Shown one piece after another: positions 16,786 through 18,450 of a stretch of 64,000 bases of DNA. The position numbers were made by a program, and so were the translations under genes. The notes beneath the pieces are model-generated. The model worked only from the letters and a program-made list of their open reading frames with translations. It did no database searches and was not told the origin of the DNA. The stretch spans positions 86,809-150,808 of the forward strand of contig NZ_VYIJ01000001.1 of assembly GCF_008709555.1 (NCBI RefSeq). Direction: 5' to 3'. Numbering within the stretch: the first letter of the stretch is position 1; every line of letters begins with the position of its first letter. The stretch comes from Thermoplasma sp. (GTDB lineage: Archaea; Thermoplasmatota; Thermoplasmata; Thermoplasmatales; Thermoplasmataceae).

Positions 16786-17120
16786 ATTCTAAAATAGCTA
16801 GGCAATTAATACACTTTTAGTTGTGCATATTCATGAAGCGGATCAGCATGTATGATCATATATGAATTATCTGATAGAAAGGATAGAGCTGCGTCTGGAT
16901 AAAATAATCTTGTACTGTTTTATAGCCATGGAAATTTACATCAATGATGTCGAAGAAAGGAAGAAGCGCAACTGTACAGATTCAACATTCTTTCAATAAA
17001 AATTTCCATCCGGAAAAAAATTACAAAATATCCAATATTTTCCAGTTTATTTCGGCATTCTGATCGAATATAAGTTTAAATCATGGACAATGTTAATAAG
17101 GTAATGTCAAAGGTGATGCC
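16786..17120. other. Intergenic promoter region between thiolase and actin operon
   Basis: This 335-base A/T-rich gap holds the reverse-strand thiolase promoter (16805-16814), and TATA-like AAGTTTAAATC near 17070-17082 plus a Shine-Dalgarno-like AGGTGAT at 17111-17117 for the actin gene. A TATGATCATA palindrome is also visible in the first third. I see no iteron or parC-like direct repeat array, and no convincing gene. Confidence 0.5.
17111..17117 (+). promoter_or_regulatory. Ribosome binding site that fixes a TTG start
   Basis: AGGTGAT lies 3 bases before the TTG at 17121. No ATG or GTG in frame matches the known N-terminus of the actin homolog, so this site decides the unusual TTG start. 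Confidence 0.6.
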
Positions 17121-18101
17121 TTGGTAGTTGTAGGATTGGATGTAGGTTATGGTGATACGAAGGTAATAGGGGTTGACGGTAAAAGGATACTGTTTCCATC
17201 CAGATGGGCAGTGACGGAGACCGAGAGCTGGGGTATAGGTGGAAAGATACCTGTACTCAGCACCGATGGTGGCCAGACAAAGTTCATATACGGTAAGTAT
17301 GCAAGTGGAAACAACATACGTGTTCCGCAGGGAGACGGCAGACTCGCGAGCAAGGAAGCCTTCCCGCTCATAGCGGCCGCACTCTGGGAATCAGGCATAC
17401 ATAATGACGGTAGCCCAGTCGATCTTGTAATAGGTAGCGGTACACCTCTGGGAACATTCGATCTGGAAGTTAAGGCCGCTAAGGAGGCTTTAGAGAATAA
17501 AGTGCTGACCGTGACAGGTCCTGAGGGTGAGGTCAGGCAGTTCAACATAACCAGGCTGATAATGAGGCCGCAGGGTGTTGGAGCTGCGCTTTACCTGCTC
17601 AATCAGGGAATCATCGAACAGCAGCCAGGTTACGGGGTGGTCATAGATGTGGGTTCAAGAACGACCGATGTCCTTACCATAAACCTCATGGATATGGAGC
17701 CTGTTGTGGAGCTGTCGTTTAGCCTGCAGATAGGTGTGGGTGATGCCATATCCGCGCTTTCCAGGAAGATAGCCAAGGAAACGGGATTCGTTGTTCCATT
17801 TGACCTGGCTCAGGAGGCGCTATCGCATCCGGTTATGTTCAGACAGAAGCAGGTTGGAGGACCAGAGGTTTCAGGTCCGATACTCGAAGATCTTGCCAAC
17901 AGGATAATAGAGAACATAAGGCTCAACCTCAGGGGAGAGGTGGACAGAGTGACCTCGCTGATACCGGTCGGCGGTGGTTCAAACCTCATAGGCGATCGTT
18001 TCGACGAGATCGCGCCTGGCACATTGGTGAAGATAAAACCAGATGACCTCCAGTTCGCAAATGCGCTGGGATACAGGGATGCGGCGGAAAGATCGATGTA
18101 G
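17121..18101 (+). CDS. Archaeal ParM-like actin homolog (matches Ta0583)
   Basis: This 326-residue actin-fold ATPase has phosphate-1 GLDVGYGDTK at 5-14, phosphate-2 VIDVGSRTTDVLT at 174-186 and the adenosine loop PVGGGSN at 282-288. I recognise it as the T. acidophilum actin homolog Ta0583, which is crystallised, closest to plasmid ParM/AlfA-type actins, and polymerises in vitro with nucleotide. Its cellular job is not established as far as I know. It begins with TTG (TTG GTA GTT GTA GGA), set by the upstream AGGTGAT. The next gene follows after 7 bases and encodes an RHH protein, the fold of ParR adaptors. Confidence 0.95.
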   Translation: MVVVGLDVGYGDTKVIGVDGKRILFPSRWAVTETESWGIGGKIPVLSTDGGQTKFIYGKYASGNNIRVPQGDGRLASKEAFPLIAAALWESGIHNDGSPVDLVIGSGTPLGTFDLEVKAAKEALENKVLTVTGPEGEVRQFNITRLIMRPQGVGAALYLLNQGIIEQQPGYGVVIDVGSRTTDVLTINLMDMEPVVELSFSLQIGVGDAISALSRKIAKETGFVVPFDLAQEALSHPVMFRQKQVGGPEVSGPILEDLANRIIENIRLNLRGEVDRVTSLIPVGGGSNLIGDRFDEIAPGTLVKIKPDDLQFANALGYRDAAERSM

Positions 18102-18108
18102 ATAATGC

Positions 18109-18417
18109 ATGACAATACGAATAGTCCTTGACCTGAGCGATGAGGAGAAGAAGATAGTGGATCTGATAAGGATTCAGGGAGAGACATACGTCGATACAAT
18201 CAGAAGGATCATCGAGGACTATTACGAATACCAGCTGGTCAGGGACGCAGTCAATAAAATATACGAAAAGCTTGGTCTTTCTGAGAAGAAGGCCGAAGCA
18301 TCCGATCCTCCGGCAAACGCCCCCGCCAAGAAGGAGGTGGCGATCAGTACCGGGCATCCAGTGAGTGTGACGAAGATAGAGGAGCTTAAGAAGAATCTGG
18401 AAAGCAGATGGAAATAG
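18109..18417 (+). CDS. Small ribbon-helix-helix-like protein, putative partner of the actin homolog
   Basis: The 102-residue protein starts with a strand (TIRIVLDLS), then two helices (DEEKKIVDLIRI and YVDTIRRIIEDYYEYQ), the ribbon-helix-helix order of MetJ/Arc-type DNA-binding dimers. A charged coil (KIYEKLGLSEKKAE), a Pro/Ala-rich linker near 65-77 and a basic tail (KIEELKKNLESRWK) follow. It lies 7 bases after the actin homolog stop, so they are one transcript. In ParMRC systems the adaptor ParR is an RHH protein with a C-terminal tail that contacts the filament, so an adaptor or autorepressor role is a natural hypothesis, though not shown. T-rich sequence at 18421-18450 probably ends the transcript. 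Confidence 0.8.
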   Translation: MTIRIVLDLSDEEKKIVDLIRIQGETYVDTIRRIIEDYYEYQLVRDAVNKIYEKLGLSEKKAEASDPPANAPAKKEVAISTGHPVSVTKIEELKKNLESRWK

Positions 18418-18450
18418 GCTTTTCAGTTTTTCATTTTTCATCGTTTCTCT
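18418..18450 (+). terminator. U-rich transcript end of the actin operon
   Basis: Directly after the RHH stop the sequence runs CTTTTCAGTTTTTCATTTTTC, three T tracts in a row. Archaeal termination uses U-rich tracts with the FttA factor, which is itself encoded at 48682. Confidence 0.4.

Follow-up and report, generated by a model that had tools for sequence, protein, structure and literature searches.

A ParM-type actin gene on the chromosome of a Thermoplasma species has a small gene directly behind it, and this actin-partner pair is real, conserved and selected. On balance, it appears probable that the actin and partner genes make up a single operon encoding a chromosomal actin module of the ParM-ParR kind, in which the partner protein would carry an RHH-like part at one end and an actin-docking tail at the other. 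The module is placed with ParM-ParR by its way of working and not as a proven member of ParMRC. The pair lies in a window of 64,000 nucleotides (the whole stretch of DNA that was analyzed) from a genome of Thermoplasma type, which totals 1.45 Mb over 46 contigs (for an overview of the features see Table 1).

In the portions of the literature covered, Ta0583 stands without a partner or a settled role, and the conserved neighbor is the first candidate partner. If the partner holds DNA, the pair would represent an archaeal chromosomal ParM-ParR system; if it holds none, the partner would be an actin-binding protein whose layout resembles that of a partition adaptor. A Ta0583 partner is not mentioned in the available text of PMC2651865, PMC10354927, PMC1852104, PMC4911067, PMC7613921, PMC11381335 and PMC2701414. 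More generally, the searched texts on Ta0583, ParM/ParR and archaeal actins do not report a partner; the primary Ta0583 papers stand outside this scope and could still mention one.

Table 1. Position and strand of the features of the actin-partner pair within the window
Feature	Position	Strand	Remarks
Conserved promoter region	17075..17117	+	TATA-like TTTAAATC (17075-17082), ACAATGTTAxTAA and Shine-Dalgarno AAGGTGAT (17110-17117), putative elements
ParM-type actin, ortholog of Thermoplasma acidophilum Ta0583	17121..18101	+	326 aa, TTG start; PDB 2fsj, E 2.9e-212; Pfam ALP_N and MreB-like_C
Actin codons D320 to R324, last helix	18078..18092	+	both residues in 28/28 partnered actins, 0/7 partnerless
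Partner gene, 102 residues, ATG start	18109..18417	+	7 bases past actin stop (gap 18102-18108); family in 29 loci
RHH-like strand-helix-helix part, residues 1-56	18109..18276	+	helices at 11-20 and 27-54 in the model; AtaR aligns over residues 2-48
Variable linker, probably unstructured, residues 57-86	18277..18366	+	pLDDT <50 at 60-85; 8/32 identical to G061 over 57-88
C-terminal helix, proposed actin-binding tail, residues 87-102	18367..18414	+	motif L93-x3-L97-E98-x2-W101
Possible archaeal oligo-T terminator, T-rich tract just past partner gene	18420..18441	+	TTTTCAT x3; function suggested by sequence

The first-pass annotation had described a ParM-type actin related to Ta0583 and, 7 bases behind it on the same strand, a gene of 102 residues; the gap, the strand, both lengths and the orthology with Ta0583 hold. 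The TTG start of the actin sits behind a good Shine-Dalgarno sequence (AAGGTGAT). In the PDB sequence search, the next matches after the Ta0583 structure are ParMs (E 9e-10 and 1e-9). All five PDB sequences that match the actin are Ta0583 or ParMs, and none is of the crenactin type. The NCBIfam ParM model is matched at E 4.7e-12, which is under the cut-off of that model. The crystal structure of Ta0583 dates from 2006, as referenced in PMC2651865 in the part available. The pair is flanked upstream by a thiolase gene on the opposite strand and downstream by DsrE and TauE genes, and the gene order suggests that actin and partner are co-transcribed. Between Thermoplasma species, dN/dS is ~0.01 for the actin, a sign of strong purifying selection, and 0.03-0.07 for the partner where computable; these are values from a rough method with synonymous sites near saturation.

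To delimit the partner family, the DNA downstream of every actin was inspected for a small gene; those found begin no more than 84 bases past the stop codon. Among 117 genomes searched across the Thermoplasmatales, the actin is present in 36, and the small gene lies directly behind it in 28 of these (29 of 37 loci, 9 genera); genomes with the actin do not, then, consistently lack the neighbor. The gap measures 7-8 bases in Thermoplasma and 8-84 in the other genera. A family HMM finds matches in 25/117 genomes at E 0.001, each of them adjoining an actin except in G053, where a contig of 3156 bases stops within the small gene. Four partners of genus group g3 were found at E 2e-8 to 1e-7 by an HMM built without g3 sequences, which confirms the family independently. 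The g6 partners (4 loci) are missed by the family HMM and were assigned by position and tail only. A match from a looser HMM search in G024 (E 0.0094, inside a 912-residue frame) was taken as chance. At the BLAST cut-off used, no gene family within 6.5 kb, apart from the actin, is common to more than 6 of the 12 genus-level groups.

Eight of the 36 actin genomes have no partner: three in group g2, among them Acidiplasma aeolicum, and five in g5, among them Ferroplasma acidarmanus; in one of the five g5 genomes the actin is broken. In the actin tree, the partnerless sequences nest inside the partnered ones (enclosing clade of 11 at 100/98), which makes the pair older than its loss. One g2 actin stands beside g13 (97/90), so that one or two partner losses have to be assumed. 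Thus, judging by the tree, the missing neighbor in the Acidiplasma and Ferroplasma groups is apparently due to loss.

Several loci depart from the common arrangement. In the partnerless g2 and g5 actins (L059-L065) the last helices are altered, and those that were aligned have GFKTTD, GFRTTD or GYKTTD in the nucleotide loop instead of GSRTTD. Within g5, G029 has a broken actin, G023 retains a remnant and several genomes have none, as if the actin decayed following partner loss. In Thermogymnomonas acidicola (L067/L104) the actin is split over several frames beside an intact partner gene, owing to a sequencing error or to pseudogene formation. The complete genome of clone ASS_A1 (G034) has two actin-partner pairs (L052 and L058) with very different partners, the second pair located ~16 kb from a second Orc1/Cdc6-like gene. 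Nearness to the origin was rejected as a general rule, the distance from the actin to the best Orc1/Cdc6 gene not being constant: 54-55 kb (G058, G000), 139 kb (G061), ~93-100 kb (two g5 genomes), 727 kb (G004) and ~900 kb (G064).

Partner proteins comprise 102-237 residues and, outside Thermoplasma, share only ~15-33% identity with the window protein. Their most constant part is the C-terminal tail motif, whose glutamate and tryptophan are found in 29 of 29 loci. The motif [LMFIV]xxx[LM]ExxW occurs in all 29; among the other ORFs of 90-250 residues in the flanks, a slightly looser form has a background of 1 in 210. Only E40, E98 and W101 are invariant in an alignment of 14 diverse partners; E25, R33 and L97 are nearly so. 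Between the window protein and that of the Thermoplasma genome G061, 42/56 residues are identical in the N-terminal part, 8/32 in the linker and 10/14 in the tail.

A structural model of the partner, computed from 17 sequences, returns the order of parts that had been read from the letters, namely strand-helix-helix, linker and short tail. Two helices (residues 11-20 and 27-54) are followed by a stretch of low confidence (60-85) and a final helix (87-100). Confidence is moderate, with a mean pLDDT of 62.7 and values of 76-80 per block for residues 11-50. The expected strand at residues 3-9 is coil in this monomer model, as would be expected of an RHH strand that lacks its dimer mate. A second-look structural alignment against 20 chains ranks the AtaR antitoxin first (Z 5.1; 1.8 Å over 47 residues, positions 2-48 of the model), and next come MazE-mt1, AtaR and VapB; we take all four to be RHH antitoxins. 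A Foldseek search of the model against the PDB gave nothing at E 0.001, PDB sequence searches gave nothing convincing, and family searches in Pfam, NCBIfam and PHROGs gave no ParR or RHH family above cut-off, nor, in Pfam, any other family. The cut-off of Pfam RHH_1 (PF01402) is reached by other proteins in these genomes and by none of 17 partner members (best E 0.26, in 2/17). Matches to an adhesin EplA model (E 0.00098; 19.5 bits versus a cut-off of 150) and to IpCS3 (E 0.00064) were discarded as low-scoring matches due to chance or composition. Taken from the model, the fold of the N-terminal part is likely RHH-like, and the partner may dimerize through this domain.

The actin sequence itself differs with the presence of the partner. 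We compared 28 intact partnered with 7 intact partnerless actins, leaving out the broken or partial loci L066, L067 and L068. Six alignment columns separate the two groups (at least 90% one residue with the partner, at most 1/7 without), among them D320, R324 and S325, which fall within the final seven residues of the protein. Position 320 is D in 28/28 partnered actins and I or L in 7/7 partnerless ones, although the 35 actins are not independent cases since the covariation rests on one or two loss events. By alignment with actin, the last helix with D320 and R324 presumably lies along the groove that separates subdomains IA and IIA. In related Bacillota actins, D320 is found in 1/10 and R324 in 6/10, and all six loci with R324 carry an acidic tail residue at the position of E98. 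Among the loci without R324, the residues at the E98 position of the tail and at actin 324 are Q/G in L097, sister of L096, H/H in L103 and E/Q in L105. In these small numbers, the evidence leans towards a contact between R324 and E98. A model of an actin-partner read-through fusion (mean pLDDT 52.2) is uninformative on docking, as the actin itself is poorly predicted with 7 sequences.

These observations suggest how the two proteins could meet. A flexible linker would let the partner reach the actin with its amphipathic C-terminal helix (L...LE..W), which would dock in the IA-IIA groove beside the last helix with D320 and R324. This contact is the best-supported step of the mechanism that we infer. 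Two known tails offer precedents. A 17-residue tail of ParR acts on ParM, and its peptide lies between ParM subdomains IA and IIA (PMC4911067, PMC3794156, in the parts available). According to the accessible text of PMC5173319, arcadin-2 ends in a conserved helix behind a non-conserved linker; this helix binds the IA-IIA groove of crenactin, which it is thought to contact through a tryptophan, and arcadin-2 depolymerizes crenactin.

The small protein could also be a plain autorepressor, or an unrelated neighbor, which never touches the actin. RHH proteins are often autoregulators and the promoter region is highly conserved, but a function confined to the promoter sits badly with a tail that is the most constant part of the protein, with actin residues D320 and R324 that track partner presence, and with a pair that persists through changed surroundings. 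We regard this explanation as very improbable, the least probable of those considered here.

In the module as proposed, a partner dimer would use its two tails to cap or nucleate the ends of filaments in the manner of ParR. The RHH end would tie the filament to something, most likely DNA, which may be its own promoter and/or a chromosomal site. The promoter region is strongly conserved in an alignment of four Thermoplasma genomes. A 14-codon ATG frame (MDNVNKVMSKVMPW, 17083-17127) is situated in this conserved leader, overlapping the start of the actin, and G061 has a similar open frame; the frame probably reflects conservation of the promoter and not a peptide. As noted in the first-pass annotation, no repeat array stands out upstream of the pair, nor elsewhere in the window when a tandem-repeat search is included, with a scan that barely detects known parC. 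None of 12 loci scanned has upstream iterons above shuffles, the R100 parC control itself scoring 4 against a shuffle maximum of 4; the parC-type scan also covered 10 bacterial loci. The missing array is thus weak evidence, since the R100 parC is hardly detected by the same scan.

In these genomes, the domain of an ordinary RHH_1 protein opens in most cases with RITVR or a similar stretch. The putative DNA-reading strand of the partner has no R-x-T-x-R, its surface positions vary among genera, and the last of them is D in Thermoplasma, which makes a DNA-independent regulator of actin a live rival. The RHH-like part would then only dimerize and bind no DNA, while the tails would sequester, depolymerize or nucleate actin, in the manner of arcadin-2. 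RHH folds are mostly DNA-binding, however, and arcadin-2 (203 residues) is, to our knowledge, not known as an RHH protein. In favor of such a regulator are, besides a strand that is neither conserved nor basic and the lack of iterons in our weak scan, the layout of arcadin-2, which with its tryptophan uses the same groove and depolymerizes its actin (PMC5173319, as far as available). Furthermore, the bacterial chromosomal Cb-cParR destabilizes aged filaments independently of parC, according to the available part of PMC12270681. We consider this alternative rather unlikely, though it deserves serious attention. It would parallel arcadin-2 and the eukaryotic groove-binding actin regulators. In evolutionary terms, a ParR-like protein of the Thermoplasmatales would have lost its centromere binding and turned into a DNA-independent nucleator, capper or sequesterer of actin with two tails, and a plasmid-partition module would have become the actin cytoskeleton of a wall-less cell, equipped with its own binding protein; such a course is conceivable and somewhat doubtful. 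Net charge was dropped as a mark of lost DNA binding: over the first 65 residues it is negative in 29/29 archaeal partners and positive in the 6/6 bacterial ones tested, but most ordinary RHH_1 proteins from the archaeal genomes have a negative charge as well. We favor a ParR-like partner whose other end holds DNA over one which only dimerizes, arcadin-2-like in effect.

Relatives of the pair occur in bacteria. Actins 36-47% identical were found in Bacillota metagenome bins, and at 9/11 loci an ORF of 85-128 residues comes next, within 2 bases or overlapping, and resembles the partner in the order of its parts and in its tail. The strict LE..W is present in one of nine aligned ORFs (L096); the others have looser versions such as LD..F, IQ..W, LE..Y and LH..F. 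At L106 the small ORF lies further downstream and was left out of the tail alignment. A profile comparison between the partner family and the Bacillota ORFs was not significant (E 0.53 and 0.37). The bins (L096-L107 except L104) have several Ta0583-like actin loci each, some beside genes for T4SS coupling proteins, and both of the two downstream 663-residue genes tested encode such conjugation proteins. On the Sulfobacillus plasmid pY0017, a more distant ParM is followed by a 93-residue ORF ending AILGAFGIEDDE. A second RHH-like ORF stands downstream of these two (L118 4738-5163), with a weak FitA-like_RHH match (E 0.0042). We also note, without giving it weight, that the R100 ParR tail EETKKNAMKLIN and the window tail EELKKNLESRWK are alike at 5/12 positions.

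With coupling-protein neighbors and a plasmid pair, the closest bacterial relatives look mobile. This raises the question whether the archaeal pair is a residual par locus which still serves plasmids or integrated elements and not the chromosome. Its patchy presence (36/117 genomes) and the two pairs in G034 would agree with such an origin. On the other hand, the strong purifying selection on both genes between Thermoplasma species, the single copy in nearly all genomes other than G034, and metabolic neighbors such as thiolase speak for a resident function, and no relative of the pair was found in the viral contigs searched. A locus still working for a mobile element is therefore improbable in our estimation. 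Of the chromosomal ParM-ParR-like pair proposed at the outset, the conserved gene pair, the RHH-like part (by model), the linker and the C-terminal helix stand, while DNA binding, a centromere site, autoregulation and a role in segregation would be predicted properties of the module.

Like crenactin-arcadin-2 of Pyrobaculum, the pair consists of an archaeal actin and a neighbor-encoded protein that ends in a short conserved tryptophan helix behind an unstructured linker (PMC5173319, in the part available); the layout is common and homology is not implied. Crenactin, in contrast, belongs to a different, eukaryote-like actin family, and arcadin-2 works as a depolymerizer. With ParMRC (R1, R100, pSK41) the pair shares the ParM-type actin, the small gene at once behind it, an N-terminal part that is likely RHH-like by model, and the C-terminal helix. 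It differs in its location on archaeal chromosomes, in lacking a ParR sequence match, in a parC that was not found by a scan barely detecting that of R100, in a non-basic and variable DNA-reading strand, and in very different linker lengths. Bacterial chromosomal ParM-ParR pairs were characterized only in 2025. Those of Desulfitobacterium and Clostridium likewise combine a chromosomal ParM-type actin with a poorly conserved neighbor predicted as RHH (PMC12270681, as far as available). Unlike them, the pair described here belongs to an archaeal order and has a shared tail motif and covarying actin residues.
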